64,000 nucleotides of DNA, from contig BCLD01000010.1 of assembly GCA_001600875.1 (NCBI GenBank), forward strand, positions 748,349 through 812,348, read 5' to 3'. The notes beneath the pieces are model-generated. The model saw only the letters and a list, made by a program, of their open reading frames with translations, was not told the DNA's origin and did no database searches. Shown in pieces: positions 3,915 through 59,991 of this stretch. The stretch's first letter is position 1. Each line of letters starts with the position of its first letter. A program made the translations under genes and the position numbers. This DNA is from Solicoccozyma terricola. Its lineage: Eukaryota > Basidiomycota > Tremellomycetes > Filobasidiales > Piskurozymaceae.

Positions 3915-7205
<3,291 letters not shown>

Positions 7206-23858: not shown

Positions 23859-24833
23859 ATGCTTGCCTTAACCATTTGCATGGTTGTCTTCTGTGGGATT
23901 GAGTTGGGTAGGTATTTTTTTTTCCTTCCTGCCATTCTTGAGAACTAAACATTGCTATCACCAGTTTCTGGTACTGCTGTCTTGCGTGCACGCTCACCTG
24001 ACATCCCCAATTTCCAAGCCAAGTGGGAAGAATCCCTTCATATGTGCAAGGATAACCCAGGCATGCTGAGTAAAAGCCTCAAGGTTGACTTGGCAGATCT
24101 TGAATACAAACACTTGAACGTGGACGAATTTTCCCAGTTTGACACGGTTGCAGCACAAGCTGTGGTTGCTGTGACACGGATCACCAACTTGCCGGTCTAC
24201 TATGCATTTGGGAAAGGGAATGCTGGCACAACCTGTGACAATATGGTTGAATTGTTGTTTCCAGCACTGTCTGAAAAGGTGTCTGTGGATAACCTGAATG
24301 GAAACATTCTCCGCGGAAATCTTACAGGGACAGCTCAATGGCCAGCATACATCATTGGGGGACTTGGTCAATGGGTTGAAACTTCTACTGAATTGAATGA
24401 AACAATGAAATCATTGAACATTACCATAGCTCAATCAAGATATGGGGGTGAAAAAGTTGCGTGGAAGAAATTTCTTAGTCCTCAATATGGGGCGAGCATT
24501 GCTAGTACTGCTATCCATGTCCTCACTGGTCAGGCTGCACACTTTGCATATGATCGGGAAGCAATGAAAACTGTCTTGGCCAAGACAGGAATCATACCAA
24601 TCATAGCAGTCTTCAAAGAGGATTCACCTTATTATGGAAAGTCGTGGTCACTTCCTCTTGCATTAATTTCCGGGCCCGAGGCAGAAACATACAACCTGAC
24701 CTCTCCGCTCCGGTGGCCTCAGAGCTCTATGATTGTCCATATTAGTGCCATTTTTGAGCAATGTTTTGCCCTTGTATCCTTGGACCCAAAGCTTGGAGCA
24801 AGTTGGCAGGATCTGACCCTACCACCAACCTAG
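23859..24833 (+). CDS. secreted protein of an unrecognised family, paralog 1
   Basis: Two exons. Exon 1 (23859-23907) encodes a hydrophobic signal peptide, MLALTICMVVFCGIELG. The intron (GTAGG...CCAG, 23908-23964) ends at exon 2 (23965-24833), with TAG at 24831-24833. The mature protein is about 290 residues. Family landmarks are DIPNFQAKWEESLHMC, AVVAVTRITNLPVYYAFGKG followed by NAGTTCDNMVELLFP, AQWPAYIIGGLGQW, AIHVLTGQAAHFAYD followed by REAMKTVLAKTGIIPIIAVF, and CFALVSLDPKLGASWQDL. Three cysteines are at positions shared with the paralogs. Several N-x-S/T sequons are present, but the NGS/T in the AFGNGS motif of the others is lost here (GKGNAG). No known domain is recognised. An extracellular or cell-wall role is inferred only from the signal peptide. 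Confidence 0.8.
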
Positions 24834-25687
24834 GATACAAGATTTATCCTGCATGTCCAGGTGGTTAAAGTGGATGATGGGAATTGCACAGAAAGGAAGT
24901 CGGTAGTAGTGTTGTGATGTAGGTTCAGATGAGAACTCCTATTTCCTTAGCCACTATGACAGAAGATGATGATGATGGATTTGCAGTAGATGGGCTTGAG
25001 TTCCAATGTTTTCCCTAGTCAACACTGACAACTGGGGAAGCCTGGACCCTACTTCTGTTTTGGTGGTTAGGCTGGCTAACAGCGATGACATCACTACACG
25101 CTGTGAGAGCCAGTGTTTTGCAAGTTGCTCTCTGTCTTGCATCTGAATTCAACAAAAATAATTCAGTTTCGACTCCAGCCAAATTAGTGATTGAGAGAAT
25201 CTTGCCAGGCATTCCAATATCCGGATGCTGTATAATCATGTATCGTCAGTCATACTCAGTATACAACTCACCTTTGCAGATGTGTTGATAATCGGGAGAA
25301 GCCCATTCTGCTTGGAAGTTGCCGTGGTGAAATGGAAATTGTCACCGGCAGAAAACCATCGGTGGTATGGGCATGCCAGACGTTCCCCTTGATGCTCGAT
25401 CGTGTATATCGCTTGAAAAGCTCCCCCCGGTGTATTTTCCGAACACGGGATGCGATCAGGAATGTAATTTTCTCGAAATAGTCGTTAAGGTACTGGATTA
25501 GCATCCAGGTGACCATGACCGCGTCCAGTGCCTGGGGCGTAGGGCCTGGTCAGGTGGGATGTAATGGTTATGCCAAAGGTTGTATCCGTTGGATTCCCAA
25601 GCGTGGATATATGGACCGCCGGAGAAGTCCTACCTGTCCTCCTTTCATAGAATACCCCAAGAGCAAAGAACTCAATCGGGGTCCAAC
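24834..25687. other. 3' flank of paralog 1 and spacer
   Basis: From 24834 to about 25100 the DNA resembles the 3' flanks of the other family members. GTGGTTAAAGTGGATGATGG (24862 on) matches a relic at 60348, and ACTGACAACTGG (25025) matches 60518. The remainder up to the ABM-like gene start shows short overlapping open frames only and no gene I can support. Confidence 0.55.
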
Positions 25688-26283
25688 ATGTCTTCCAACC
25701 TCGAAATAGTCATTATTCACCTCCCCGACAACGCTGGAAACATTGAAACGACTTCTACATTCCTCGATGGCATGCAGTATGTCAAGTCCCAAGAGGGTTG
25801 CAGGAGCGTCCGATCGGGTCGTGCATTGAGCGACCCGAAAGTGTCCATCTGGTTCTTTGGTGAGAGACAGCACTTTGAAATCATCCGTGTTGCCCCAACC
25901 CTGGCTCACACCACAACTGTCTTTGCACGATAGAGTGGGTTACAATCGATGCTTATCGCGAATGGCAGAAGCAGCCTCACTACAAGGAATTCCGAGAATT
26001 CTGGTTCTCTTTCGCTAAAAGTCCTGAGGCGGGAATACCACCTCTTGAGATCCGACATATGACCATTCCCACTGCAGAATTGCAGGAGATTGTAGCTAGC
26101 AAGGCCGTAGAGATCGTCATGGGTGGGAACGGCAATAAAGGGAAATTCAACACCACGGTGATAGAAGGGTTCGAAGAAGGTCAGTCGATAGGCCTCACTG
26201 GGCTGAACGATGACAGTGAGGGTACAGATAGAGTGAGCGAGGGTGACGAAACGGTCTACAAGGTCAAGCTCAGTTCGTTTTGA
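25688..26283 (+). CDS. small ABM-like (dimeric alpha/beta barrel) protein
   Basis: Starts at ATG 25688 (MSSNLEIVIIHLPDNAGNIE). One intron follows WFF (GTGAGAG...CGATAG, about 25860-25933), and exon 2 continues EWVTIDAYREWQKQPHYKEF to TGA 26281-26283. The pattern of a strand, a helix (TSTFLDGMQYVKSQEGCRSV), strands with a Trp (PKVSIWFFEW) and a helix with a HYKEF end resembles the antibiotic-biosynthesis-monooxygenase/Dabb fold common in fungi. That fold is used by small oxygenases and stress proteins. About 170 residues in total, with a less typical acidic C-terminal segment (NDDSEGTDRVSEGDETV). Catalytic function is not deducible, and assignment rests on fold pattern only. Confidence 0.6.
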
Positions 26284-27746
26284 GACCGGGGGCGGGGCTG
26301 GGGGTATCTGTGGTGGTGGGTGGTCTGTGGTGGGTCGTTTGTTTGTTTGTGTGTTGTGATTTGTAGAATATGTGTACTTGGTCTGCCTGCGTACAACACA
26401 TCCTTCCAACGACTAGCTTCGTACACCGAGAAATGTCGACAAGATGCTACGGAGGATGACATCGATATCCTTGGTGCTATCACGTCCTTCATCGATTCCC
26501 AGATGACACCTATGGAGCCTCTTGCTGTTTATGTATCTGCTAGTTGGGGGATTGCTGCATGCTCTTGGTGACATCCTCGGCCATGAGAACCTATTCTCTC
26601 ACTCCAGACGTTGTCCAAAACCTCGTAATTGAACGCTGTTTCATCTTTTCGTCATGGAAGCACAACGTAGAAACAACACCTGGAAGTCAACAACGACGAG
26701 ACGATCAATCCTTTTCTCATCATTGAACACGTTGTAGCCCATGACGGCGACGAGGATAAAGGAATGGAGTCACTGGTTCTTCGTCGACTCTGATGATCAT
26801 CTACACATACCCATACCCCACCATTACCGCATTCTCGACACTCACTGACTTCATGACGAGCACCCTGATCAGCCCAGACGGCAAATGGACCGTGTCGTTT
26901 CGAGATCCCTTCAACCTCCAGCCCTTTCCACTCGAGGACGTTGTGAACGACATTATCAGCACAGCCACGATAGTTCGGAAAGGTGGCAGCGTGGGTAGCT
27001 CACGACCAGGGTGTCTTCAAATGCTACCACCACCCGAGCTCATGTTTCACTCACTTTAACAGAGGTTTCAGATTTACTTTGAACACAGAAAGGACGAGGA
27101 CCAGGAAGTCAACGACGAGGAGGGAACGATGGTCAGATGTTGGACTGATACGTCGTACGAGGGTACATGGGCGATCAGAAATAGGTGTGATTTTAAAGGA
27201 CGTTTCCCTAGCTACCAGCAAGGTGTACCCGAGTATGGACCATTGTCCAAACAATTTCCGGAACACGTTGTGAGTGAGACCTGACTCATATCGCAACCAA
27301 AGTGTCGACGAGGAACATATACCCAAACTGAAAATGCCAACACTTGCGACCTACTCACAGGCTACAGTTGGCCAGGAGAAATTCATCGAGATTGTGTTTG
27401 CGTCTGCTTCCTTCAAGTGTAAAGGCTTCATGCAAGATATCAATGGCTACGACGTTTGGCCAGAAGATATCGACGGATTTCATAGTTTTGCGAAGAAAAG
27501 GCTCTACATGTACGTCTCGAGAAGAAACACCCCAATCCGCACTGGTATTTCATACTAACTGCGACTGAAGGAAATCGCAGAGAGGGAGGCAAGAAGAGTG
27601 TGGACGTTCAGTCTTCTCAGCTAGATGCCGTCACTGCCAACACCGACGCAACGTGGAAGATTCATATCCGCTATCGACCTTGTCCAAACGACGATCAGGT
27701 TGATGAGAAACCTAAGGAGCAAGGTAATGGTTCTAACGGCGAATAG
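26284..27746 (+). other. unresolved multi-exon coding region, plus strand
   Basis: Several plus-strand segments have protein-like composition but I could not join them into one model. They include TSFQRLASYTEKCRQDATED (near 26400-26460), NDETINPFLIIEHVVAHDGD (26690-26750), SPDGKWTVSFRDPFNLQPFP (near 26870-26935), RFQIYFEHRKDEDQEVNDEE with EGTWAIRNRCDFKGRFPSYQ (27065-27220), QATVGQEKFIEIVFASASFK with GYDVWPEDIDGFHSFAKKR (27360-27500), and a last exon ending ATWKIHIRYRPCPNDDQ with TAG at 27744-27746. GT-AG pairs exist between some of them. No family is recognised. Some joins meet stop codons in every phase tried, so decay or two adjacent genes are possible. Confidence 0.4.
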
Positions 27747-30752: not shown

Positions 30753-31489
30753 GGTGAAGGATGTGTCGGTGCTGGATGGGACGGGGGTGTGGTGGTAGAT
30801 GGTATACGAATGGTTGAACATGGCTGAACAGGCCGACTTTTGATTCGAATGGTTCACAACTTTCACGTGTCGGGGGGGGGGAGGGGCGGGGGNGGGTTAC
30901 ATCTATATACAACTGCCAACTCAGTGCCACTTTGAGAGCGGAACCTTGGGTCGTAATGGTAAAAGTCCGGTTAATGAATGTTCACTTTGCAGCTACATTC
31001 CTTACAAATTGAACCACAAATTTCATCAGATAGACATCACTTCATAGTAGGAGGGGTCTGTGAAACGTTTGGATGTGGATTATGAAGCTGGATATGGTGA
31101 ATAGAAACTCAATCCAAGAGTTGATGTGCATTTGATTAGCCTAACATCTCCTAGGAGATAATCCCCCCTGTGAGATTTCTCCAGGGTGGCAAAAAGCTCC
31201 ACAAGGAGATTTACTTTTTTCTCCCGAGGAAAAAAAAAACAAGGTACTTGAATGAAACCCCTCACAATGCCACAACAATTGCCACAGATACACGCAGGTC
31301 TATGAGCGGATGGAGCTCCCTGCTCAATTAAGAAGATCGCCTGCATAACACAACACACAGAGGACTCCTCCCATGCTGGTCATTGTGGTCAAATGTTGAC
31401 ATCTATTTAAAGACATATTGACCACATACCTGTATGGTAATCATGGGACTCAAAGGATGGATTTCCCAGCCCTTCCATTGACCAGAGTA
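30753..31489. other. spacer between DPH1 and the paralog 2 upstream module
   Basis: DPH1 promoter side, including a G-rich run with one unread base at 30870-30897. From about 31240 to 31489 it shows patchy resemblance to the region upstream of paralog 1 (23230-23450). No gene is supported; the longest minus-strand open stretch here is not conserved in sense. Confidence 0.5.
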
Positions 31490-31628
31490 AGCCGAAACTG
31501 AGTAGGGCCAATCATGTGAAATTGGAAAATCAAATGAATGGATACTGCCAGTGGCAGCCCCTGTGTGGCCTCCTTGTTATGCAGCATTGTGTATCGTTCA
31601 AGCCTCTAACTCCCACAGGACAAGGGTT
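31490..31628 (+). promoter_or_regulatory. conserved upstream module of secreted paralog 2, cut off by the retrotransposon
   Basis: Carries the family's upstream blocks: CCGAAACTGAGTAGGGC, CAATCATGTGAAATTGG, GGATACTGCCAGTG (31540) and GTTCAAGCCTCT. It ends at the target-site duplication at 31629. The matching core promoter and gene resume at 37004 on the far side of the element, so this module has been moved 5.4 kb from its gene. Confidence 0.65.
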
Positions 31629-31633
31629 CCAAG
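31629..31633. repeat. 5 bp target-site duplication (left)
   Basis: CCAAG directly precedes TGTTACG of the left LTR and is repeated as CCAAG at 36999-37003 after the right LTR. Five-base duplications are usual for Ty3/gypsy integrases. Confidence 0.9.
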
Positions 31634-32140
31634 TGTTACGACCGGACCTTGACGGAGGAGTGCCGAGGTACGGGTGTGCAAGCACACAGGAAGCGGTCGA
31701 GAGGAATTGCGGAATGGATGACGAGGGGGCCTAGTCCGGTTGCCAACTTCGCAGAGTTGCAGCAAGGAATCACTTGACCAAGGTGAAGGACCAGGTGGAT
31801 AAGAGCTCAGTGAAAGCTGAGCTTGATTGACTAGTAACGTATGATATCTTTTGGTGAAGAGAAAAGGAAAAGTACAATGAGGCAAAGTAGTTTCTTCTGC
31901 TTTATATATGTATTCTGGGAAGGGTGTTGAGTCATAGATGTTGTGCGGGTTGTTCGGGTGTTGAGTCATAGAAGTTGTGCGAGGTGGTCGGTGTTGTCGG
32001 TGTGATCGGTGTGGTCGGTGTTGTCGGTGTTGTCGGTGTGATCGGTGTTGTCGGTGTGTTCGGTGTGATCGGGTGTTGAGTCATAGAAGTTGTTTTATTG
32101 ATAGCCTATGTTGCGGTACTGCATTGGCAGGATCGTAACA
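31634..32140 (-). repeat. left LTR (3' LTR of the element)
   Basis: 507 bp, TGTTACGACCGGACC to GGCAGGATCGTAACA. It contains an inverted repeat AGCTCAG/CTGAGCT near 31806-31825 and a GTGTTGTCG-type minisatellite at about 31985-32072. The pol stop codon lies 45 nt inside it. Confidence 0.95.
31985..32072. repeat. TCGGTGTTG minisatellite in the left LTR
   Basis: About nine copies of a 9-10 nt unit alternating TCGGTGTTG, TCGGTGTGA and TCGGTGTGG. The same array is present in the right LTR at 36843-36930. Confidence 0.85.
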
Positions 32141-35100
32141 GCACCCCCTCCATTAAGCAGTGAAGTCCCTTGAACTGCACTTGTTGTTGTCCGAGTCTTA
32201 GGGTAGTAACCCTGCTTGAACTTAGTCGCCATCATGCGGAGGTTCTTGCTTTGGGGGGTGGGGGGTGGGGGGGGTCGATGTTGCGCTTTCGGCTGATGTT
32301 GCTCCACCGTGCCGATGTTGCAGTGCAGGCCCATGGTCCTATGGGGAGGGGGGCCGATGCTGCTCTGCCGGCCGATGTTGCCCTGCATGCCGATGGTGCC
32401 GTACAGAAGAGCGATGGTGCTGTACCCGCTTGCTTCTGAAATCGTTGCAGGTTGAAGTGTAAAATTTGAGCGTGGGTTGTATCCTTTGTTGGCAAAGAAT
32501 GGTGACAGTCCAGTAGTGGCATGTGGTGCATTGTTGTATGCAAATTCAGCGGTAGGTAGTTTGGTAGCCCAATCGTCTTGATTGTAGGTACCATAGATGT
32601 GGAGGTACTGCTCCAGTGTTTGGTTTGTCCTCTCCGTTTGTCCATCCGTTTCTGGGTGGTAAGCGGTACTGAAGTCCATCTTGATGTCTAGAAGTCCTGC
32701 TAGAGACCGCCAGAAACGTGAAGTGAATTCAGAGCCTCTATCACAAACAATGCTTTCCGGTATTCCATGCCGGGAAAATATGTGAGTGGCGAAGAGTTGT
32801 GCCAGTCCTTCTGCCGTAACCGATGTATAGGTTGGGATAAATACCGCCATCTTTGTGAGCCTGTCAACGATGACAAGTATCGCATCATAGCCATTCGATG
32901 GGGGTAGTTGTTCAATAAAGTCCATTGAGATTGCCGACCATGGGAATGGTGGCACCGGAAGTGACTTGAGCCCTCCATAAGGTTTGTGATGGCGTGCCTT
33001 TGCACGTGAACAGGGTTGACAGGAGTCCACATAATGGTGGATGAAAGTCTTCATGGATGGCCATGCAAAGGAGCGTTGAACGAGTTGTATTGTTTTGCGG
33101 CGTCCGGGGTGGCCAGCTCTTGGAGAGTCGTGGAAGTCTTGGAGGATTTGGAGTCGGAGGTCCCTTGCATCTGGGACAAATATGCGGCTTTTGTAATATA
33201 GAAGTCCGTTCTCCTTGATGTGGTATTGAGGGTGTTGTTGAATCGTTTCAATGATGTGTTGTGTTGCTTGATCCTCCGTAACGGCAGTTTTGATCAGGTC
33301 AAGTAACTGTGACCTTGCTTCCGAGAGACCCATCCTGATGAATTGTCCATCCTTGATCAGTTGATGAAGGTTGTGAGGATTATTTTCTGCCGTTAAGCTA
33401 GAGCCTTTCTCAACCGGACAGACATCTGGCCTTCGGGTGAGAGCATCTGGTTTAGTTCCCTGGGTGCCGGGACGATACTTGATAACAAAGTTGAAGTCGG
33501 CCAAGAACTCAGACCAGCGAGCTTGCCTGCGGTTGAGTTGCTTGGTGGTTGTAAAGAATTCCAGACTCCGGTGGTCTGTGAGTATTTCGATGGTGTGTTG
33601 GGCACCCTCCAAATAGTGGCGCCATTCCTTGAAACATGAGATGATAGCAAGCATCTCTTTGTCGTGGATCTCATAGTTAAGCTCTGCTGGTACCATTTTG
33701 CGGGAGAAGAATGCAATGGGGTGGATGTCCGTTGAGTGTTGTTGAGAAAGAATGCCTGCAACAGCAAAGTCGGATGCATCCGTCTCCAGAATGAGAGGCT
33801 TGGTAGGATCGAAGTGATAGAGTAGTCCATCGGACAGGAATGCTTGCTTGAGGTCTTGGAATGACTTTTCTTCCTTGTCCTTCCAATCGAAGATAAGTCC
33901 TTTCCGTGTCAATTGTGTAAGAGGATGAGCGATGCTTGAATAATTCCTGATGAACCGTCTGTAGAAATTCGCAAAGCCTAGGAAGGCTCGGACATCGTGA
34001 AGAGTCTTGGGTGTGGGCCAGTTGAGTACCGTTTCAACCTTGGCCTTGTCCATCTTGATACCATCCGGAGCCACAACAAAACCCAAGAATTCCACCTCTG
34101 TGGTATGGAACTCGCACTTCTCTGCCTTGGCATACAGGCCTGCCTCATGCAAGCGTTGTAATACCTTTGCGACATGTGACTTGTGTTCTTCCAGCGAGTT
34201 GGAATAGATGAGGATGTCGTCCAGATAGCAGATGACAAACTTGTCCACCATATCCGTGAAATGGTGGTTCATGAGGTGTTGAAAGGTTGCCGGTGCATTG
34301 GTTAGGCCAAAAGGCATCACGAGGTACTCAAAGAGCCCATACCGTGTCCTGAAGGCTGTCTTCCATTCTTCACCCTTAGCAATCCTGAGGAGATTGTATG
34401 CTCCACGGAGATCAATCTTGGTGTAATACTTTGCCTGATGCAGTCTGTCCAGTAGTTCTGCAATCAGTGGAAGCGGATACCGATTCTTGATTGTGATCTT
34501 GTTGAGACCCCGGTAATCCACGCAAAGTCTGAGGCTTCCATCCTTCTTTTTGACAAAGAGGATTGGTGCAGCCGCTGGCGACTCTGAAGGCCGGATGAAG
34601 CCCTTCTTTAGGTTCTCTTCCAGATAGTCCTTGAGTGCTTTGAGTTCTGTTTCTGATAGCGAGTAGATTGGGCCAAAGGGAGGTTTCTTTCCTTCCTCGA
34701 TGGGAATAGTGTGATCAAAGGGGCGGTGCGGAGGAAGTGTATCCGCCCGTTCTTTGCTGAATACGTCCAGATATGTGTGATAGTCTGTAGGGACCATATC
34801 ACAATCATCCCTAGGACCAGATTGGCTGTCTTGCATAGCATTTGTTGCTACCAAGGGAGATATGTTGCCGTGAGAACCCTGCACTGCCTCCGTTGCAGCC
34901 AGGTGGAAGCCAGGAGAGGCCAGAGATAAGGTATCAGTCCCAGATGAAGCGGTGACTGTACCGGTGGTCCAATTGATTATGGGGTTATTTTGCTGTAACC
35001 ATGGATAGCCGAGAATGATTGGGTGTGATCCCAATCTTGTGACTTGGAAGATGATATCCTCCTGATTGAATCCCTCAACCTGTGTCTTCATCTGGGTTTC

Positions 35101-35387
35101 ACGAGTGATGTCCCCTCCACGTGAGAGGCTTCCATCCACTAGAGTGAGATGTTCAGGTATGACTTTGGGTTGAGTGGGTATGCCATTGATCTTGATAAAA
35201 GTCCTGTCGATAAAGTTTCCTGATGCACCACTATCCACAAGTGCAGGCATGCTCTTGAGCCCTGGGAGATTGATGTTGACTATTATACTCCTTACTTGTG
35301 GTGGTGTTGCTGCGTTTCCAATAGCCCCAGCATTCTGGCAGCTCAGCGCTGGGTGTTGTGTAACATGCTGAGTGCCTAGCCTTTTCC
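32095..35387 (-). CDS. pol: retrotransposon Pol polyprotein (protease, RT, RNase H, integrase)
   Basis: Open frame of more than 1,050 residues, entered from gag by a probable -1 frameshift at 35382-35388; the first in-frame ATG is at 35250. The protease has PALVDSGASGNFID. Reverse transcriptase has SLRLCVDYRGLNKITIKNRY and the YLDD catalytic box (VICYLDDILIYSN). RNase H has LILETDASDFAVAGILSQ. Integrase has the HHCC zinc finger (HDSPRAGHPGRR to DSCQPCSRAK) and the DDE core (MDFIEQLP, VCDRGSEFTSRFW, AYHPETDGQTERTNQ). After NFTLQPATIS the usual integrase C-terminal domain is not recognisable. It is replaced by a Gly/Ile/Gln/His-rich low-complexity stretch with GTIGMQGNIGRQSSIG, and no chromodomain is seen. 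The frame runs into the LTR. The core is undamaged to my reading. Confidence 0.92.
32141..32151 (-). promoter_or_regulatory. polypurine tract for plus-strand DNA priming
   Basis: On the minus strand GGAGGGGGTGC directly abuts the LTR start TGTTACG, as expected for the PPT of an LTR element. Confidence 0.7.
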
Positions 35388-36400
35388 CGCTTCCTTTGAT
35401 TCCATAGGTTTGAAGTTGGGCGTCCTTGGATTAGGGTTGGCATGAGAAAAAGGGCATTTGGCAATGGTGTGATCTGCAGATCCACAGTAGAGACATAATT
35501 TGTTATCCCTTCTGCGTGTATATTCTTCCTTGGTGAGTTTCCCAGCCGGTGTGACTGGAAGGTTGGGACTAGTCTTGTTGTTGGTGACAGGTGGTCTTGT
35601 TGTTCCATTGGTGTTCCTATTGTAGGAATTGTTCCTTGGAGTGAAGTCACGATGATGAATAGGACTGTAGGTTCCTGGTGTGAACCTTTGATGAGTGTTG
35701 ATGTCGCCACCTTTTTCAAGGTTGCGTTCATAGACCCTTGTGTCGATTCTGACAGCCTGTTCCATGAGATCATGTAAATTTTCTGCTTTTTCTTGCCTGG
35801 CTAATTCATCTTTGATGACATCCTTGAGGCCACGATAGAATTGAGCCATTTTAGCCTTGTCATTCCATCCCACAAGGACTGCATAGCGTTGAAAATCGGC
35901 CAAGTAGGTGGTTGCAGATCCTTTTTGTTTGAGTGAGTAAAGGTTCCTTTCTGCGGTTCCTTCCTCATCCGGATCTCCAAAGAGTTCCTTGAGCTTTGTG
36001 CAGAAAAGCTCAAAGTCATTGATGATTGGGTCCTCTGGAGTCTTGCCTACGTAAGGTTGGAACCAAAGAAGTGCTGTTCCATGGAGGAAAGATCCCACCT
36101 AGAGAACCTTAGTCTTTTCTGTAGGGTAACGGGATGGTTGTAGTCCAATAACCATCTTGACTTGTGTAAGAAAGGGAGTAAGTCCTTAGAGCCAGAGAAA
36201 AAATCTGGGCTCGCAACTTTAGGTTCGGCTGTCCTTTCTTTTGTGATGACAGTTGAGGGTTGAGGCGAGACCCTTGATTGGTCGGTAACCTCTGCGAGTG
36301 TTGCCCTCATTTGCGCATTTTCTTCCATCAGTGCAGCAATGCTTCTTTCAAGGCTTACGAGCCGACTGTTTTGGGTTGGAGCTGCAGGTGTAGCAGACAT
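35376..36400 (-). pseudogene. gag: retrotransposon Gag, broken by a frameshift and a stop
   Basis: Starts at ATG 36398-36400 (MSATPAAPTQNSRLVSLERS), with a coiled-coil-like N-terminus and the start of the retrotransposon gag domain (KVASPDFFSGSKDL). The gag homology then moves to another frame near 36165-36185, and a TAG interrupts that frame at 36099-36101. After it, the domain continues with GSFLHGTALLWFQPYVGKTP, LADFQRYAVLVGWNDKAKMA and a zinc knuckle CLYCGSADHTIAKC (C-x2-C-x4-H-x4-C), ending at TAG 35376-35378. Gag normally forms the virus-like particle, so this copy would need Gag from a relative to mobilise. Sequencing error at the frameshift cannot be excluded. Confidence 0.8.
35382..35388 (-). 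promoter_or_regulatory. probable -1 ribosomal frameshift site between gag and pol
   Basis: Minus-strand heptamer GGGAAAA, in the gag frame G GGA AAA, two codons before the gag stop (GGC TAG). pol is open in the -1 frame through this point. It matches the X XXY YYZ slippery pattern. Confidence 0.6.
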
Positions 36401-36463
36401 GGTGATGTTGGTGTAAATAACTGGGTGATGACTTGAGTAGTGATGTGGTTGATAGTTGATCCA

Positions 36464-36482
36464 ATCCGCAAACTTGGACCAA
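36464..36482 (-). other. possible primer-binding site
   Basis: About 10 nt past the inner end of the 5' LTR the minus strand reads TGGTCCAAGTTTGCGG. TGG is the usual start of a tRNA-complementary PBS, but the distance from the LTR is larger than normal. Self-priming, as in Tf1-like elements, is the alternative. Confidence 0.25.
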
Positions 36483-36491
36483 AAGATATAC

Positions 36492-36998
36492 TGTTACGAC
36501 CAGACCTTGACGGAGGAGTGCCGAGGTACGGGTGTGCAAGCACACAGGAAGCGGTCGAGAGGAATTGCGGAATGGATGACGAGGGGGCCTAGTCCGGTTG
36601 CCAACTTCGCAGAGTTGCAGCAAGGAATCACTTGACCAAGGTGAAGGACNAGGTGNATNNGAGCTCAGTGAANGCTGAGCTTGATTGNCTAGTAACNTAT
36701 GATATCTTTTGGTGAAGAGAAAAGGAAAAGTACAATGAGGCAAAGTAGTTTCTTCTGCTTTATATATGTATTCTGGGAAGGGTGTTGAGTCATAGATGTT
36801 GTGCGGGTTGTTCGGGTGTTGAGTCATAGAAGTTGTGCGAGGTGGTCGGTGTTGTCGGTGTGATCGGTGTGGTCGGTGTTGTCGGTGTTGTCGGTGTGAT
36901 CGGTGTTGTCGGTGTGTTCGGTGTGATCGGGTGTTGAGTCATAGAAGTTGTTTTATTGATAGCCTATGTTGCGGTACTGCATTGGCAGGATCGTAACA
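36492..36998 (-). repeat. right LTR (5' LTR of the element)
   Basis: 507 bp copy of the left LTR with A instead of G at its eleventh base. It has unread bases between 36650 and 36712 that cluster on the AGCTCAG/CTGAGCT hairpin region. Confidence 0.95.
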
Positions 36999-37003
36999 CC
37001 AAG
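36999..37003. repeat. 5 bp target-site duplication (right)
   Basis: CCAAG, identical to 31629-31633. It is followed by GGAGCC...TTTCAAAGGAATG, which resumes the family upstream sequence. Confidence 0.9.
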
Positions 37004-37063
37004 GGAGCCTGTATTTCAAAGGAATGAAATGTTGGAGACCATAACATCGGCCAAAGTCTGGTG

Positions 37064-37070
37064 TATATAA
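37064..37070 (+). promoter_or_regulatory. TATA box of secreted paralog 2
   Basis: TATATAAGAAAGCAGCTA about 85 bp before the ATG. The retrotransposon ends only about 60 bp upstream of it. Confidence 0.6.
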
Positions 37071-37150
37071 GAAAGCAGCTATTTCTCACATTCAACCAGT
37101 ACACTGTCAATAGAATCATCTCACAAACAATCAGGTCAAATACTCTCAAC

Positions 37151-38166
37151 ATGCTTGCCTCAATCATTTGCATGATTGCCATCTGTGGCATTGACTTTGG
37201 TAAGGTAGTGATACTTTCTCTACACCAGTCTTGAGAACTAACCATTAATATTTGATAGCTTCTGCTACTGCTACTCTCCATAGATCCTCACCTGACATCT
37301 CTCAATTGCAAGCCAACTGGAAGTCCACCCTTTTCAAGTGTGATGAACTGCAGCGACAGAAACGTGGAAATATAACACAGATGCGTTCTCCAGCATATTG
37401 GGTTTCATGGGCGGAAATTAACTTTAACTATGAAAACGTGGCAGATTTGGAAGTAGTTGTGGCTCAAGCTATGATTGCAGTGACATCCACCAACAATCAA
37501 CCAGTTTCCTATGCTTTTGGAAATGGCTCAGCTGGAACAACCTGTGATGAGATGGTCGAACTCTCATTTCCCACACAACTGCCTGAAAATGTGGCTCCAA
37601 GTACGCCTGTGTACAAGAAATACACCAAACATCTCGTTGACAACCTCCTTGGGACCTACGTAAATAGGATATACGAATGGCCTGCATATGCCCTCCTGGG
37701 AGTTAAATATCTGGCTGACAATTCTCCTGAATTGAACGAAACAAAGGCCCTTTTTAATATAATCGAGCGCCCACAAGTCAGCAACACCGGGGCCGAGTAT
37801 TATGGCAGCATGGCTAAGACTGCCATGCATATCCTCACTGGCAGTAAGGCCCAATTTGCACTCAATCAGACTGACATGCAAGATGTCTTGGACCAAACAG
37901 GAAACATACCAATCTTGGCCATATTGAAGGGACCCATTTGGGACTACTCCCACAATTGGAAAGGGAACTCCCTTGCAATAGTTGACCGTGAACTAGTCAA
38001 CAATGACATTGAACAAACAAGATATTATGTTGTTGATTTCAATCATTCTCCTCTTCAGAAGTATGATTTGGCCAATATTAGCACCATTGTCAAGGAATGT
38101 TGGGGACTGGTATCCTTGGACCCAAACCTTGGAACAAGCTGGCAGAACTTTGCCATTCCATCCTAG
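37151..38166 (+). CDS. secreted protein of an unrecognised family, paralog 2
   Basis: Exon 1 (37151-37199) encodes the signal peptide MLASIICMIAICGIDF. The intron is 37200-37258 (GTAAGG...GATAG). Exon 2 (37259-38166) ends in TAG at 38164-38166. Landmarks: DISQLQANWKSTLFKC, VVVAQAMIAVTSTNNQPVSY followed by AFGNGSAGTTCDEMVELSFP, EWPAYALLGVKYLAD, MHILTGSKAQFALNQTDMQD followed by VLDQTGNIPILAIL, and CWGLVSLDPNLGTSWQNFAI. The conserved AFGNGS carries an N-glycosylation sequon. It keeps all three cysteines of the family and is the fullest intact copy here. The gene body is intact but its upstream module lies beyond the retrotransposon, so expression may be altered. Function unknown. Confidence 0.82.
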
Positions 38167-47419: not shown

Positions 47420-48386
47420 CTAGGTTGGCATGGCGAAATTTTTCCAAGTTGCTGCATCCTTAGGGTCCAAAGATACAAGTGCCCAAGATCTTCCCATGAT
47501 CGTGCCACAAGGGTGTTGTTCAGGAGGATTTGAGTCTGTATTAAGACAATTATAAGTGGTTGCTTCAGGGCCCTCTGTAAAGTTCATAGAGAGCACTATT
47601 CTTGAATCCAAGTATGTTGCAAGTCCCAGTTCGTCTTCAGAGTTAACGAATGCTATGATTGGTATGGTTCCTACATGGTCCAAGATATCTTTCATGTCTG
47701 ACTCATTAGAGGTTAACCGAGCCTCTCTTCCAGTGAGGAAATGGATCGCAGCAACAGCAGTCTCAGTGAGAATCGCCAGAGCAGCTCTATCTGGTGAATC
47801 CCGAATTTGGTTGCGTTTAGCAGCAGGTTGATCCCAATTGAAGAAACCTGCCATGATGTAAGCAGGCCAACTGACCTCTGTATTGAGCATGGCGGCAATA
47901 GCTTTGAGCTTTGGGTCTGTCTTGGTGACAGACGAATGAGCCTGGAGTGGCTTAGGAAATGACAATTCAACAATGTCATCACAAGTTGTTCCAGCTGTGC
48001 CATTTCCAAAAGCATAGGAGATTGGCAAGGGAGTGATGGAGGTCACAGCAATTATAGCATTCCCAACAGTTCGGATAAGGGACCGATTTAATCCAGTTAA
48101 ATCCTTATCAGGACCTGAAATGGAATTGTAGTTATTAAAGCTAAAATCCGCCGAGCCCACCCAAAACTCTTTACCACGCATGGGTGGTCCTTGGCAATTC
48201 GCAAGGGTGGTTTCCCAGTTGGCTTGGAGCTGGGTGATGTCAGGTAAGATAAGAGAGCTAACTAAACCAGCAGATTGTGTATATTGATGGTCAGTTCTGA
48301 AGAAGCACAGACATAAATCATCACTACCTACTGGTGGCAGCCGCACAGGCGCTGGGCAACCAGCTGCAAACGTCAAAATGAACCAT
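47420..48386 (-). CDS. secreted-family paralog 3, signal exon altered
   Basis: Exon 2, read on the minus strand down to TAG 47420-47422, is intact: LPDITQLQANWETTLANC, GPPMRGKEFWVGSADFSFNN, IAVTSITPLPISYAFGNGTA followed by GTTCDDIVELSFP, VSWPAYIMAGFFNWDQ, IHFLTGREARLTSNESDMKD followed by ILDHVGTIPIIAFV, and WALVSLDPKDAATWKNFAMP. The family's third conserved cysteine (ECW/QCF) is replaced by RSW, with a nearby HPCGT. The ATG at 48384-48386 sits in the conserved position after ACTCTCAAC. The first exon, however, reads MVHFDVCSWLPSACAAAT instead of the usual hydrophobic signal peptide. A phase-compatible splice (A/GTAGGT to GGTTTAG/TT) exists. Secretion is therefore uncertain. Confidence 0.65.
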
Positions 48387-48479: not shown

Positions 48480-48490
48480 GCTTCTTATAT
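48480..48490 (-). promoter_or_regulatory. TATA box of secreted paralog 3
   Basis: Minus strand GGATATAAGAAGCAGCTA, about 95 bp before the ATG, equivalent to the element in the other copies. Confidence 0.55.
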
Positions 48491-48539
48491 CCACTGGAAA
48501 CACCCTGGTGCTATGTCTGCAAAAAGTCATTCCTTTGAA

Positions 48540-48720
48540 AGCCAGGGTCCCTGAACACCCCTGTCCAAGGAGATACCAGGGGTTTGAATAATCAACAATA
48601 CTATGTAGAAACTATGTAACAAGGAGGCTGGAAAGGGGCTCACACTCGTAGTATCCTTTCATTGCCATCCCAATTTCACGTGATCAGCCCTGTTGAGTTT
48701 CAGCCACCCTCAATCATGTG
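48540..48720 (-). promoter_or_regulatory. conserved upstream module of secreted paralog 3
   Basis: Read on the minus strand, the family blocks occur in the usual order: GGCTGAAACTCAACAGGGCT, GATCACGTGAAATTGGGA, AATGAAAGGATACTACGAGT, GCCTCCTTGTTACATAG, TTCAAACCCCTGG, TTTCAAAGGAATGACTTTTT. The first block continues with further similarity to paralog 4 out to about 48745. Confidence 0.65.
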
Positions 48721-49079: not shown

Positions 49080-52000
49080 ATGTCGGCTCCCCACCATCGT
49101 CCGGCGCGGGGTCGTCTTCGCTCTGGAACAACGTCCGCTATCCATTCATCGTCGACGTCGCCGGCGTCCACCGTACACGCACTAGCACCAGCTGTTCCTC
49201 CGTCGACTTCACCTACGTACACACACAACCTAGCCATGTCTCCCTCGAAAAGATTTCCCCGTGGCGAGGGTGAAGATTCAAGAGGTCCAAGTGGTCATTC
49301 CAGAACAGTATCTTCCACTGGAATGCTCGAATCCACTTCTCCATCTAAAGCCAAGAACCCTCTTCCACAAAGCCTACAATCATCTCCACTCTCAGTTAGA
49401 AGAGGTAATAAATCGATCAACATCACACCTTCTTCTACCATCCCCTCTGGACCCGGCGCTGGGTCTTTGACAGATCCTCCAGCTACAAAACCTAGATTTG
49501 CAGGTCAACAATTCCAATCGTTTACTCCATCTCGAGCTTCATCTTCCAACTCCACCGTTCTACCCAATACTACCACCACCGACACATCACCTGATTCATC
49601 ACGCCTCACTCTAAATATACATATGACATCGGCATTCGATGGATCTCAAGTTGTAATGGATAGAAAGAAACTATCATGGGCGAAAGTGGGAGATATCGTA
49701 CAGGTTAGGCCAGAGGAGGATGATGGAACGACAGGAAGAAGGGAAGGTGAAGATGAGGATAGGAGTAAGGCCAAGAAGCGGAAGAGGAAGGGGAATTACT
49801 TGTTTAAAATCGAGGAAAATGATGAGGGTGCATTGAAGAGGTTGAACACCTGGGTAAGTCATGTTTCGTGACGATTGTCGAAACCTGCAATGCGATGGTG
49901 CAGAGTCGAGCTGTGCTAGCAGGAAAACTGACAGCAACGATTTCGGGAAAATAGTCTGGACTCTCCGTCATCGAAAGTGTAGCTCAGGTGTTCGGGTTCA
50001 GCAATCGTTTGAACATCGAAGTCAGCAAGGTATGTCCTATAACCCTGATCAAAAAATATCCTACGTTTTCCCCTCTTTCTAAATTTCGATGTATACAATC
50101 AATGTTCTTCCAGGTACAACCAGCCACTGTCGAAGCCGACTTTGTAGAACTTTACTTCACCGGCCAATACCTCGGTCGAGCTGATATGTGGAGACTCGGC
50201 ATGTTCTTGGAAGGGAAATGCGTCCATGTCAGGGAGAAAATCGAGTTCTCGGCCGGCATGGTCAGGGCAGAGGTCAAGGCTGTTTATATCGAAGGCAAGC
50301 AGGTGAGTTTCCCTCAGGTTTGTTTTGCGACATTTCGGAGAGGAATCTGATGTGGTGCTTGTGGAACTCTCGGGGTCTCATCTGCTCAAGGTTATGTCCG
50401 CGCTCATCACAGCACGGACCAAGACGATCTTCAGAAGCAAATCAGCACAGAGTTTCATCTTCCTCCAGCTGTGTAGAGAGATGTATGAATTCGATGAGGA
50501 TGGAGAACGGTATTACGAAAAGGCGCTGTATGGTAAGTTATGGACGAAAGTTGCATTTGCCTTGACCGTGGAAATACATCAATTCAAAACAACCAATTGC
50601 AGGTTTCCTACCTGAATTATTCACCAGATGGAAGAACACCCAAGCGAATCACGTCGTGACTTTTATTCTATTCGCTCGGGTCTACTACGCCCCAGAAGAC
50701 GTTGAACACCTTCAGCATCTCGGTACCACAGGCACAGACGCACTACGTTACGACGAACATCTAGGACATTTCAAAGACTTTTACAAGATTATCGTTGACG
50801 CAGAGCTCAGAGCAGAATGGCATTCTTTATTGCCTACGTTGAAAAGGGAGGTTATAGAGACTCATTCGCATATCCTGTTGAATCACCATCTCGAAGAGGA
50901 TGAGAGCAAGGAAGCTAAGATCATCGGGAGGTTGAGCTTTGTGAGTTGAGTTACAAGACTTTGGAGTTGGATGCGACGCTTAATTTTGTATCATCCGTAG
51001 GCCCACGAGGGCAACATCCTGGAAAGTCTCAACATCGTCCTGAATCCTTTCGATGAGAGCTACATTGATCGTGACCTATCGCGCACCGGACTGTCTATGG
51101 TCATGGTCACACCCGGCTCTGGTCACTTCACCGTCAACAAGCATCTGCTCCGACTCACCACCGAGCGTATTCTGGAGCACGGCATATGCCTCGACCTCAT
51201 CAACTTGACGCAGATACCGCTGCATAGCGTACCGGTATTCAGCTTTCATTCGACAACTCCGATTGTCAAACCAGAGGACGCGAGGGGAAAGCAAAACGTT
51301 AACGGTGCCGATCCGTTGTATTACGACGATGCACAATCCACGAGAGATCAGCAGGAGAAAATTTATCACTGTGCGTTCTCGCCGAAGCTGACGACTGTCT
51401 TAGTTCTAGTCAGCTGATATCATCTTCTCCAGCCCTCGCCTTCTGGGTATACTGCTCTTTCTACTCGAAGAGCCATGACAAGCCGTTCCGTCAAGACCGT
51501 TTCATACCCCGATGCAAGATGTACGAAGTCCAGATGTTGGGAATGCTCGATCACGACCTGACGGAAGTCAGCATACCAATCCTTGACGTTAGTGCGAAGC
51601 TTGCCATCGAGGGTCAGGGGATGTCATCTCCGACAGAAGACACCGCGGAATCAAGACACGCTGCGATGCTGGCTTACGATGCAGGTATATTTGGGGGATC
51701 CAAGGGCAACGGAAGGGCTGGACTGTCTGGTCTTTCGCCTCGCGGGTCTCAGCTCAGCTTAAAAGCTGGAAGCGGTACCCAGCTCTACTCCACTAGCTAT
51801 CAGTCAAATCGACTTACTACATTCCGTGAGGGATCAGATCAGGAATCTAGACCGTCAAGTTATCGCGAGCAGAGTGTCTTGGGAGCGACAATCAAGAACG
51901 AGAGTCGTCGAACTAGCAACACAAGTGCACTTCTCGGTGATGACACGTCGACACCGACAGCGCGCTTGTCCCCCAAGCCTTCTACCGCAGGCGTCACGCC

Positions 52001-54979
52001 CGTGAAGGCAAGGTCGCCAATCGAACCAAACATGCTCAACAAAGATCCGGCGACCCCTCACTCCCTCGCGAAGAAGGAGAGCAAAACGTCGATCTCATCG
52101 AAAGCCTCGGCACCCCGCAGCTGGTTTTTACGGTTCACCACTCGTGCTGCTCCCAGTCAACCAACCGCTGCCGTAGAATCAGTTGAGCGGCAAGCGGTGT
52201 CCAACCACAATTCACCAGCGGCGTTGGCGACCCAAACAGCTCGCTCAAGTCACACTGGATCACCCGTATCTATCGCCGTCCGCGCATCGCCAGCCCCTCC
52301 ACCGACCGTCATGCTGCCATCGCCGGCGCCAGAGCCGACCTTGACGCCGTCGCGTCAGGTAGACCTCTCCGTTGCACAACCCATCGCAATCACTCTCCGT
52401 GGCCGGTCTGTGGAACCTCCCCGCCGCCGTCGTCGAGTCGATACAACCGACGACGCCTCCCGCACGGTGACAATCCAGCAACGACGCCAATCCACAGAGG
52501 GTCATGGATCTCTTCCCCATATTTCCTCTGGGTCTTGGCGAGCTCAAATAGCGGGACCGCCAGCGCGCACTGAGGCTTTTGAACTTAATCCATGTCGGCC
52601 ATTCACACCGAAGGTAGACCGAACTGGACAGTCTCGCAACTGGAAACATGGGATTCCCAAGCAAACATACCAACACGAAGTTAAATGGGACAGCATGTGC
52701 GCACCTGCTTGTCTTCCATTGAGCAACGATTACTTGCCCTCCGAGTGGCAGTTATCAACGCAATATGAATTGTCTACACACGAGGTGGATGTGGACGTAT
52801 CGTTTTTGCTTCGGCCGGGCCTGATCCAGGATCTTCCGCTGGCTGTCATGAGGGAGCTTGCCTCACAAAGATTGTCTCGTACGTCCTCTATGGTGGTAGG
52901 AGATGCCAGTGTTGAACTGACGGATGTCTGTCTTGCAGAAAATTTCCAATTTATCACTTTGCCGCCATTTCGGTCCGCCGCTGCCTCCCAGTCGCATTTT
53001 CCCTCCTTACACACTGAATGGCGGCGTATGCATCTCCGCCAAGGTGGACCATCAGATATTTTCAAGGAGAACGGCAGCCCGCTCTACCTGTCTACCCACA
53101 ATTACGTCCACGTATTGACGCCGATGCAGCTATCCAACACAATCGGTGTAGAATGCTTCACCCGCAAAATAAACTATAAGACGGATGAGGTCAATTACGA
53201 CTGCCTGATCTGGCCGAGGCAGAGACAGGGGTATCACCATGCTCAAGCCACTTTCCGCTTCCCTGTGAGTCCCACTGTCAACCCTCCTATCTTTCACATG
53301 AACTCATCTTAGTAATCGGCAAGCAGGACCTGGCAAATCGGAAAGCATTCAGCTACCTCGATCGCCTCATCACCGGCAAGGTCGATTCTTTCACCGATGA
53401 CCTCCGATACTGGCGGACTCGCTTCATCCTCATTCCCTCTGACAAGGAAACACCGCAGATGACCGGTCCAAAGGGAGAACCTCTTAAGGCCGACGAGATA
53501 CACATCCTCGGCGCGACCAAGGTGCTGGAGATCATTGCTAAACAGCGGTGGAAGAACCCTAACACGGATCAGCAATTGCCCCCTCCGAAACTTCTTCCCA
53601 CATGGCTTGACCCATCCGCCTGCATCCTCGACGAGAGTCTGATGGCTCAACTTGAACAGGTGCACAGTCGACCAATTGTCGAAACATCATTAGCTCACGC
53701 TCGCGTCTCTGATGCCACTTTGGCCAAGCTGGCGGAGATGATGCGTGATCCCAAGACCGGTCTCCGTATTGGTGATCTATGGTGGCAACGCATGCAGTAT
53801 CCGGACTCCTTCACGGGTGAGGCATTCGTTGATTGGCTGCAACGTACGTTTGAGGACCTGCCGAACCGGGAGGCCGCTCTCGAATTTGGTACGAAAGTGC
53901 AGGAGCGGGGACTCATAGAACATTGCGTCGGCAACCACGGATTTCTAGACGGTCACTATTTCTATCGTATTCGGGAAGAGTTTGGAACCGGGCCGCGATC
54001 CAAGGGAGCTCAACGCTGGTTTCCTAAAGGATTTCTTCGAGATTCCACCGTTCCCAAGGACCCGCAACCCGGTAACGTGGCCACTAGCTACCGAACTTCG
54101 ACTGTGAACCCCTTCGGCCTGACTCCTCCGTCCGAACATACCATGGGTGGACGCGGACAACGCAAACGCAAGATCGTGATGAGTCAGACCATGATTATTG
54201 ACCTGGATGTGCGGAATCGGAAGAGCGACCGTGCGGAAGGCGCGATTCTGCATTCTGATATCATTCACAACCCCGCCAACGGATTTCACTTTGAACTCAA
54301 CTGGCTGGGTGTCTCTGTGGGACTATTGGACGAAACTCGTCAGCGGTGGGGTCGCGAAGCAGACAAGTACGGCTTGCGATTAGTGGAAGCGTCTGTTGAG
54401 CAGATCAAGGATATTGGCCGCAAGTACGCGTATCGATCGTGCTATCCAATCAAATTGGTGCTTCCACCACCGGCCATTGCGGATTTGGACTTGCGACTAC
54501 CCGAGGCTATCCGGACGGCGTACTACTTTGAATATGCGATTCTCACTCGAAAATTCGGCTTTGTCCTTGATGTTGAAGCCAATACGCGATACCCAGATGA
54601 CGTGACTGTTGAGTACTCCTATCGCAAGGCTGTCTTTGACCACTCTCAATTCGTCCACAAGACGGGCTTGGCTCTCGTACAGTGCCTTGGTGGCACCGAC
54701 GGTTTCTTGTGGTCACATAATCGGCTGTTCATCTCGGCGCAGAGCCGCTCATCGAACCAAAACACCGCCAGCGAATCATACTTGGTCGCGCATGACCGCG
54801 CCGAGAAGATATGCAATGAGCTCCAAGCATTCTGCAGTGATCCTCAAGCGCTGGCTGAATTCTACGACAGTGTCATTCCGCCTATGCCTGTTGAGCTGGT
54901 CAGTGAGACGGAATCAACAGAGGAGGAACAACCAACGACAGAACTGGACGAGACGAATGTGGAACATGCGATGGAGTAG
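49080..54979 (+). CDS. IML1: IML1/DEPDC5, GATOR1 (SEACIT) subunit
   Basis: Starts at ATG 49080 ([20 protein letters not shown]) and ends at TAG 54977-54979, at least ten exons, well over 1,500 residues. After a Ser/Thr-rich N-terminus comes the IML1 N-terminal region ([59 protein letters not shown]). Next is the SABA-type region ([35 protein letters not shown]) and a long disordered stretch (51650-52560). Then follow [24 protein letters not shown] sequence and a DEP domain, [20 protein letters not shown] through [18 protein letters not shown] to GHYFYRI (53760-53970). The C-terminal domain has [17 protein letters not shown]. In the GATOR1/SEACIT complex this protein supports GTPase activation toward Gtr1/RagA at the vacuole, restraining TORC1 when amino acids are low. 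Its 3' end converges with the eIF4E2-like gene only 30 bp away. Confidence 0.93.
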
Positions 54980-57030: not shown

Positions 57031-57965
57031 CCGCCTCCCATCCCACCCTCTCGCTGCAAAATACCCTCATCAACAATGCCAAATCGTCATCCGCCTTCGA
57101 GAATCGAATCGAGCGAGAAAGAGTACAATTTGACAGGGCGCTGGAATGTTTGGACTTTGGTGAGCGATGCGGTAAGCGCCGCAAGTGTGGGAAACGAATC
57201 ACTGTCAATCGAGGTAACTACCTGGTCATAAATCCATACTCCCAGATCCAAACACTCAACTTTATATTACATCTTGATCTACAGAAGGGAATGGGAGCAC
57301 TGCAGTCCTGGTCCAACTGTTGAATCCAGACGATAAAGCCCTTTTCTTCAGCAAGCCACATGAGGTCGCTTCCAGGGTAACATTTCCTTGTGGGAAAGTT
57401 TCGATGGCTGATGGTGAAACTTGATGCCAACGACAGATCTTCACGCTCCCCGGACGTAATTTCGAGGCAATGTTCAAGCTCTGGAAAGAGTGGATGGATG
57501 CTATTGGGAACACAGAGGGAAACAGTCCCCTCCAGTGAGTATGAAACATGTTTTACCAATAAGCACCTCCTTGAAATCCCCTACTGGTCTTCACAGCAAG
57601 ATGAAACAAGAGCATGAGCATATGCAAGCCGAAATGGTGTCGGACACAGAGTTGGAGGTCTGGGCGGCTGTCGCGATGGGAAGGGGAGACGAAGCGAACT
57701 TGCCCGCATATTCGACCACTTCGTCGAATTCATCTCCGCGCAGCATCGAGGACGGATCTGACAATAACGATGATGGCACCGCATTTTGGGAGAAGTTGAT
57801 TAAGGCTTCCAATGCCGTCGACAGTGGCTTAACGGTTGAGGTGCCGTCTGTCCCGTCTGTGCATTCAACAGTGGATGACACCGGAAAGGTGAGTCTAATC
57901 AGTGAAGTCAAACCTACTATGTGCTCTGATGATAGTTTTGGGAAAACACCCCCAAAAGAGTATGA
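57031..57965 (+). CDS. unrecognised multi-exon protein
   Basis: Open exon from about 57031 (no certain start; the frame opens after TAA at 57024-57026) encoding NTLINNAKSSSAFENRIERE, RVQFDRALECLDFGERCGKR and KCGKRITVNR. Introns follow near 57214-57284 and 57379-57436. Middle exons give EGNGSTAVLVQLLNPDDKAL, FFSKPHEVASR and IFTLPGRNFEAMFKLWKEWM. The last large exon has HEHMQAEMVSDTELEVWAAV and an acidic Ser-rich tail. A final GT-AG intron (57892-57937) leads to FWENTPKRV with a stop at 57963-57965. Reading through that intron would instead stop at 57976-57978. About 250 residues. The four closely spaced cysteines/basic residues (ERCGKRRKCGKR) could bind metal or nucleic acid. No family is recognised and the true start may lie in an upstream exon. 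Confidence 0.45.
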
Positions 57966-57978
57966 AACTGGTAAATAG

Positions 57979-58740
57979 TTGCTATGGAAGTATGACATTC
58001 CGAAGCCGAAGTCTAGGCAGCAGATTCGGATAGGAGGGAAGGAAGAAGTGGCGACAACAAGGCGTGAATGGAGCAGTACATTCAATACAATGTACCATAC
58101 ATCATGCTATCTCTGTTCAGCTGCTTTGTACCAAAACAAATTGATTGAGCGATTTCACTTCTCTAGATGGCGGTCCCTTGCCATTGCAGTCTTCATGCGT
58201 GTGGTGTAAGGATACCGCCTTACCGAACTCGAAGACCGTTCTCAAACCCAAACGTTTGTACCCGAACTCAGACGTTTCCTTGGATCGTTTGACATAGCTA
58301 ATGACATTTGGCTAATGTAGCTGTGTCGAGTGATTTGAGATCGAAATTGTCACTGTTGACGGTGGAGAAGTAAGAAACAGTGGCAACCAATTTGTTATCC
58401 TGTTTGCCACAAGTCCAGAACAGGTATAAGCAGACCAAGATCACTGTTGTAGACAACCCTCTTGTACTTGTCAGGTGCATGTTCGGTCTTCGTAAGACAT
58501 AGCGGCTTCCGGACTACTCGTTTTACAAGATAGGACTGAAAGGCTTAATCCGAAGAGGACTGCTATGACTATATTCGGGAACTCATGCAAGTTAATTTCA
58601 GATCTATCTTCTCACTCACTACGTAACATGATGTGATCGGATGAGCTAAGGTAGTATGATGTGGTTAGGTAGCGACCCTAAGTCGATATACGATTAGTCG
58701 AGATGCGAGTGGCAAATGTAGTGTCATGGAATGCTATGCA
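57979..58740. other. spacer downstream of the unrecognised gene
   Basis: AT-richer intergenic DNA with short overlapping open frames only. CAAACGTTTGTACCCGAACT near 58250 includes a small inverted repeat. Nothing else was seen. Confidence 0.4.
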
Positions 58741-59012
58741 TTGCAGCAGGAAGGGGTCTGTGAGATGACTGGTATTTTGCCCTACATGCATAATCCACGA
58801 ATGTATTCCTTTTTTTTTTTTTTTTTTTTCAAATACACTTCAGCTCATCAGCTAAGAGAATGGCCATCATATCTGAGCCGATGAGCTGAACCACTACTCC
58901 CTTCCTTCCTATCCCTTTATCATAATCCTCTTCAACCGCCTGCAAGTACAGGACAGACCTTGTCACCTTCCATGACATGGTGATATCCTGCCAAGTTACA
59001 AGTTACTGGAGC
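58741..59012 (-). repeat. conserved 3' flank of secreted paralog 4
   Basis: Minus strand: TACTTGCAGGCGGTTGAAGA, GGATAGGAAGGAAGGGAGTA, ATGTAGGGCAAAATACCAGT and CATCTCACAGACCCCTTCCT, matching the 3' flanks of paralogs 2 and 3. It carries an A tract of 22 nt (T run at 58810-58831 on the plus strand) and an inverted repeat TTCAGCTCATC/GATGAGCTGAA at about 58850-58892 that could form a hairpin in the 3' UTR. Confidence 0.65.
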
Positions 59013-59991
59013 CTATGGGTCCAAGGATGGCATTGGGATATCCTGCCAAGTCGCTCCAAGTGTGGTGTTCAAGGATACAAGTACTAAACATTTCTCAAAA
59101 ATGGCGTCAATGTCACCAAAAGTGTATGTTTCAGGGGGATGAGAGGAGCCATTGACAAAGGTGTATATTTCTTTTTCTGATGCATTGTTTTTGGAAAACA
59201 CCGGGACTGTAGTGTATATATCATTGTCTTTGAATGAACATCCTGGCCCGATTTCCTTTGGGACCTGCCTGAGAAATGCCATAATTGGTATGGTCCCTGC
59301 TTGGTCCAAGACAGCTTTCATCTCTGTTTGGTTATATGCAAACTGAGGTGGTCTCCCAGTGAGGACATGCATGGCAGCACTAGGGTGGGCGATATCCCAT
59401 ACCCAGTCTTTATGGTCTTCAAATTCCCGCTTTGCCAACAATACCTTGTGTGTTTCATGCTGAATCTCGTAATATGATGGATCCCGTCGAATTACATCGA
59501 TGATGTATGTAGGCCACTTGAATGGCCCTTCCAGTTTCTCTCTGAGATCAGAGACCCACCCCTCGGACGCAGTCCCCTTTGCAGACAGTGGTGCAGGTTA
59601 TGAAATATTAACATTTGATTCACAGGTGGTGCCAGTGGAGCCATTTCCAAAAGCGTAGGAGACTGGCTTTGGGCTGATTAATGTCACAGCAATGACATCT
59701 AGAGCCCTCTGCACGTAATTTTGGAGGGGTGAATTGTTGTAGTCAAAGTTAACATCCTTCCAGTCAACCCAGAACTCTTTACCACGCATGGGTGGTCCTG
59801 AGCACTTTGCAAGAGTGGTTTCCCAGTTGGCTTGGAGCTTGGTGATGTCAGGTAAGCGTGGAAGAGAATTACCTACACCAGCAGCTGTTGTATTTTGATG
59901 GTCAGTCCTGAAGAAGGATAGACAGAAATCATCAGTGCCTACCTAATTCAATCCCACAGATGGCAATCATGCAAAAGATTGAAACAAGCAT
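59013..59991 (-). pseudogene. secreted-family paralog 4, single nonsense codon
   Basis: Exon 1 starts at ATG 59989-59991 and encodes a good signal peptide (MLVSIFCMIAICGIEL). The intron GTAGGC...CAACAG ends at exon 2, first base 59884. Exon 2 has LPDITKLQANWETTLAKC, GPPMRGKEFWVDWKDVNFDY, VIAVTLISPKPVSYAFGNGS and GTTCESNVNIS. It then meets TAA at 59598-59600, where the other copies have the Phe codon of ELSFP. Beyond it the same frame stays open to TAG 59013-59015: PFKWPTYIIDVIRRD, SAAMHVLTGRPPQFAYNQTE, MKAVLDQAGTIPIMAFL and CLVLVSLNTTLGATWQDIPM. No frameshift was seen, so inactivation is recent, or the stop is read through, or it is a sequencing error. Confidence 0.75.

Follow-up and report, generated by a model that had tools for sequence, protein, structure and literature searches.

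A small, locally dispersed family of probably secreted proteins in Solicoccozyma terricola with a predicted calpain-like fold and a common promoter layout

What kind of protein is encoded by four similar genes dispersed over one stretch of the Solicoccozyma terricola genome? The stretch, hereafter the window, comprises 64,000 nucleotides (C10:748349-812348), and the genes, named c1 to c4, had been described in a sequence-only reading as a family of four secreted proteins without a known domain, whose number within 36 kb suggested active expansion. In our analysis they are best explained, on balance and with reserve, as members of an old, probably secreted, non-catalytic binding family with a calpain-like fold, which as far as searched belongs to one fungal lineage and has one promoter layout.

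All four genes were present as homologous two-exon genes at the positions and strands given in Table 1, and a fifth member, c5, was found outside the window. Whether c2 or c5 served as query, the whole-genome search gave the same five loci, which lie at 727.7-808.2 kb of contig C10; these searches score the best candidates only, and distant members elsewhere are possible. The intact copies c1, c2, c3, and c5 matched one another with BLASTP expectation values (E) of ≤2e-35 and identities of 32-38% (36-40% over aligned exon 2 columns), and the two pieces of c4, compared separately, matched each other copy at E ≤2e-16. The conserved blocks keep the same order, as had been claimed, and the alignments of copies span the full length rather than the blocks alone. 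Intact proteins of about 300 residues, likewise expected, are encoded by c1, c2, and c3, but c4 carries a previously unreported in-frame TAA (59600-59598) at codon 112 of 307. The best-fitting splice pair of c1, c2, c4, and c5 gives a 49-nucleotide exon 1 (phase 1) and an intron of 57-59 nucleotides directly after a hydrophobic N-terminal stretch. Secretion is predicted, probably through an N-terminal signal from the separate first exon. In c3, by contrast, the N terminus is less hydrophobic, exon 1 aligns poorly with the other copies and does not clearly encode a signal peptide, and a 55-nucleotide exon 1 with a 70-nucleotide intron is one among several possible splice pairs.

Relatives of the family were few. 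A profile of four copies matched three proteins among 5,817 candidates, and the profile enlarged by these three matched six among 3,040 (weakest E 8e-50), namely, P0001, P0002, P0003, P0069, P0070, and P0071, all with uninformative names. P0001 is 94% identical to c2 over 261 columns and P0002 is 85% identical to it; P0003, P0069, and P0070 share 49-53% identity with c1, and P0071 shares 88% over 163 columns, counting in an odd tail that by eye resembles another frame of c1. The apparent frame shift of P0071 is possibly a sequencing error. In a tree of nine proteins (P0071 and c4 excluded), c2 clustered with P0001 and P0002, and c1 with P0003, P0069, and P0070, with c3 and c5 placed weakly. 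Since P0001 and P0071 have the same source label and the same longest contig of 20,193 bases, they probably lie on one contig of a close relative in which c1 and c2 are near each other. As a coverage control, an exon of the IML1/DEPDC5 homologue of the window returned 65 proteins, the two named ones being from basidiomycetes (Dentipellis and Astraeus); thus, fungal proteins are present, at least in part, in the searched database. Pattern searches of the genomes of bacteria and archaea and of viral contigs gave 83 and 85 matches, none of which was confirmed as a relative. The family would be small and, as far as searched, restricted to one fungal lineage.

At the sequence level the absence of a known domain was confirmed, as Pfam and NCBIfam scans of the members gave chance-level matches only (best LigXa_C at E 0.081, and best E 0.22, respectively). 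Structure models built for the exon-2 proteins of c1 and c2, however, predicted that the mature part, about 280 residues, resembles the calpain protease core in fold. Calpains filled ranks 1-17 and 1-19 of two realigned Foldseek lists, a few calpain chains ranking lower, and among the matches listed, most rows in both were what we take to be papain-like peptidases. These ranks, and the agreement of the two models for members that are only 40% identical, argue against the alternative of a wrong fold assignment, in which an orphan secreted protein of alpha/beta type was modelled from a shallow alignment and the model only resembles the papain/calpain arrangement; we regard this alternative as unlikely, if well worth weighing.

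Several results weigh against a secreted calpain-fold family. The Foldseek E value was 6e-3 at best, with template modelling (TM) scores of 0.41-0.48 by query length at ranks 1-6; the c2 model was of low confidence, and its plain Foldseek search gave no clear match. Peptidase_C2 of Pfam was unmatched in the members scanned up to E 10, a range in which the tool dropped most matches above 0.1. Against three or four calpains, which served for the profile homology tests, hhalign gave a probability of ≤0.3% in all five runs, and profile-versus-shuffle tests were null over the length and for five of six hand-chosen blocks, the remaining one, the Cys-helix block, reaching an uncorrected p of 0.003. 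Moreover, the signal peptides are putative, being judged from hydrophobic N termini, and the five genomic hits of the promoter pattern described below occur by construction, because the pattern was written from these copies, so that only its absence elsewhere is informative.

Because the hhalign and shuffle tests gave calpain homology no support, block matches to calpains seen by eye (the WPAY helix, the LTG turn, and the FP end of the hairpin) were dropped as evidence. The family profile, searched against PDB sequences, returned nothing at first and two chance rows later, with no calpain in either search. A viral structure library yielded nothing at E ≤0.001, an annotated calpain of an Aureococcus anophagefferens virus ranking fourth at E 0.08. 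In the genome that holds the window, a Pfam-family search for calpain genes found no match but was uninformative, since none of 14 controls matched either; human calpain-2 gave one weak match containing stops (E 0.065), and a Cedecea plasmid calpain gave none. Calpain relatives with which to broaden the profile were absent from the collections of genomes, viruses, and phages; plasmids supplied one, and one more was partial.

The residues expected of a calpain active site were considered in nine sequences. By the order of elements, and not by residue superposition, we equate helix 57-70 of c1 (QFDTVAAQAVVAVT) with the calpain helix headed by the catalytic Cys. Region 50-70 contains no Cys in any of the nine sequences. 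In the strand region expected to carry the His, 222-240, a His occurs somewhere in four of nine, with a column common only to c2 and P0001, which are 94% identical, and no His column is conserved. On this correspondence, no calpain Cys-His-Asn triad was found, and calpain-type catalysis is predicted to be absent. The polar, aromatic, or Cys columns kept in all sequences or all but one are Asp44, Thr70, Tyr79, Thr88, Thr89, Cys90, Trp125, Thr187, Glu238, Tyr242, 258 (Asn), Ser260, Ser271, Trp280, and Gln281. Among them, Cys90 of GTTC (8/9) and Thr88, Thr89, and Ser271 (9/9) might suggest that the proteins are hydrolases, active through a site of non-standard kind. This is very improbable, given that no His column accompanies them and that the only conserved acids are Asp44 (8/9, one Glu) and Glu238 (8/9, one Asp); furthermore, disulfide bonding could be the role of Cys27, of Cys90, and of a Cys near 266 (c1 numbering) that c3 and c5 lack at that place. 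As the triad is predicted to be lacking, binding rather than cutting is most likely, and a calpain core without its triad would serve as an extracellular binding scaffold with loops that vary by copy.

The active expansion proposed for the family was not borne out. Exon 2 of intact pairs gave a synonymous divergence (dS) of 0.94-1.3 and a nonsynonymous divergence (dN) of 0.53-0.62 (Nei-Gojobori, own script), and on this measure the paralogs are old and loosely constrained. In all but one of 14 comparisons, the ratio of nonsynonymous to synonymous differences per site (pN/pS) stayed below 1. Among c2, c3, and c4, identity at aligned sites was 79-84% in the 140-base upstream flanks and 67-84% in introns but 58-62% in exon 2 (shuffled controls, 40-46%); when gaps were counted as differences, the contrast narrowed to 60-79%, 56-70%, and 51-53%, respectively. 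Faster change of the coding part would account for this contrast, and so would conversion at the 5′ ends. The former would suit effectors for host interaction, or surface proteins, that selection is diversifying, a reading close to the effector-like or surface role raised earlier, which probable secretion, few relatives, and clustered divergent paralogs also favor. Conversion gives the same flank pattern, however; the flank excess becomes smaller or absent once c1 and c5 are included, and whole-gene pN/pS does not exceed 1. We hold diversification of this kind to be possible, and since it is compatible with a calpain-fold binding family, the two probabilities overlap.

The defects of single copies might instead indicate that the family is in decay and has little function left. 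Besides the stop in c4 and the lack of a recognizable signal exon in c3, c5 overruns the normal end by about 35 residues, P0071 looks frame-shifted, and 152 bases separate c2 from an upstream retroelement. But c1 and c2 are intact, the frames of P0001 and P0002 reach the normal end, all but one of the pN/pS values are below 1, and all five copies, c4 included, keep the promoter pair; decay thus seems a rather improbable account.

That promoter pair, TTTCAAAGGAWT followed by ATAARA, is common to all five upstream regions and spans 58-60 bases as a whole. As a pattern with a 30-55 base gap it occurred five times in the 23.9-Mb genome, once per copy, and its reversed control did not occur. In the window, the 14-base box was observed four times with ≤1 mismatch versus 0.17 expected, and ATAAGAAGCAGCTA is common to three window copies with ≤2 mismatches. 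Because one private layout is common to them, all copies are probably expressed together.

The retroelement upstream of c2 is a Ty3 element with gag, reverse transcriptase, RNase H, and integrase domains between its long terminal repeats (LTRs), which identifies it as Gypsy; a protease domain scored 2 bits below the cut-off. It is flanked by a 5-base target duplication, CCAAG (31629-31633 and 36999-37003), the LTR ends having been read by eye, and it lies between a distal conserved flank on one side and the c2 box and start on the other. The element is recent; its LTRs are nearly identical, with a single substitution where both have a called base and seven positions N. The LTR as a query matched at least 67 pieces in the genome, its own two included, and a remnant of the same family lies 3′ of c5 (L004 999-1137). 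The window has 11 uncalled bases, in 14458-14484, at 30893, and in 36650-36697, seven of them in the right LTR.

Table 1. Coordinates of the family members, their upstream motifs, and the element near c2
Feature	Position	Strand	Description
c1	23859-24833	+	exon 1 23859-23907, intron 23908-23964, exon 2 23965-24833; 305 aa, intact
c2	37151-38166	+	exon 1 37151-37199, intron 37200-37258, exon 2 37259-38166; 318 aa, intact
c3	47420-48386	-	exon 1 divergent; exon 2 intact (48261-47420 with the splice pair chosen here); spliced protein 298 residues
c4	59013-59991	-	exon 1 59991-59943, intron 59942-59885, exon 2 59884-59013; broken as read
c5	G000:C10:727688-728647	-	fifth member, outside window; 337 residues; locus label L004
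c1 promoter pair	23600-23659	+	TTTCAAAGGATT box and ATAAGA
c2 promoter pair	37014-37072	+	box and ATAAGA
c3 promoter pair	48483-48540	-	box and second motif
c4 promoter pair	60070-60128	-	second motif CATAAGA
c1 leader repeat	23735-23856	+	about seven tandem units of 16 bases
Gypsy (Ty3) LTR retrotransposon	31634-36998	-	507-base LTRs; ends 152 bases upstream of c2 start
Distal c2 upstream flank	31491-31627	+	matches c4 upstream 60152-60285 (76%) and c3 upstream 48617-48704 (76%)

Elsewhere in the window, a DHX35-like helicase exon lies at 5410-6120, an exact tandem duplication of a 123-base unit at 13086-13331, the IML1/DEPDC5 homologue at 51519-54979 (DEP and DEPDC5_CTD domains in 53459-54976), and, at the window edge, a direct repeat with a 60-base offset, 82% identical, at 63833-64000. 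The conserved IML1/DEPDC5 exon and the DHX35-like exon both agree with a fungal, probably basidiomycete, origin.

Among secreted fungal families, many lack relatives by sequence, and one fold, once found, can explain several orphan families. The RNase-like AVR proteins of powdery mildew are not known to be catalytic. How the present family compares with known systems depends on which feature is taken. From the calpain protease core (MEROPS C2, PF00648) it differs in having no triad and no detectable sequence similarity, in being probably secreted, and in being a single domain; chicken calpain, as outlined in PMC4631099, is a multidomain, calcium-binding enzyme. Calpamodulin, androglobin, Caenorhabditis elegans clp-3, and Drosophila calpain C are described as having a calpain domain with lost active-site residues and a presumed protein-binding role (PMC4631099). 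The likeness would lie in a predicted calpain fold without active-site residues and a proposed binding role; those homologues, however, are calpains by sequence, whereas this family resembles them by predicted fold only and has a hydrophobic first exon in addition. Export alone is not new, because extracellular or surface calpains exist, namely, bacterial homologues with signal peptides (PMC4631099) and Schistosoma tegumental calpains, described as proteases (PMC5635006). Those are recognizable calpains, unlike this family, which lacks calpain sequence and triad. Powdery mildew AVR effectors, sequence-divergent secreted proteins of one RNase-like fold according to PMC7857584, resemble it in idea only, as their fold is different and this family is known from sequence and models. 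Our searches of open-licence papers brought up no calpain-type scaffold for secreted fungal families.

That an exported, triad-less calpain fold gave rise, within one fungal lineage, to a private and co-regulated family of extracellular binding proteins that is diversifying is a tentative proposal, which goes beyond the preferred explanation and which we would sooner doubt than assert. If true, a triad-less secreted calpain-like scaffold would add a fold for secreted fungal families and supply a profile for hidden relatives, and the promoter motif pair, which genome-wide stands only before these five genes, gives a direct handle on their co-regulation.
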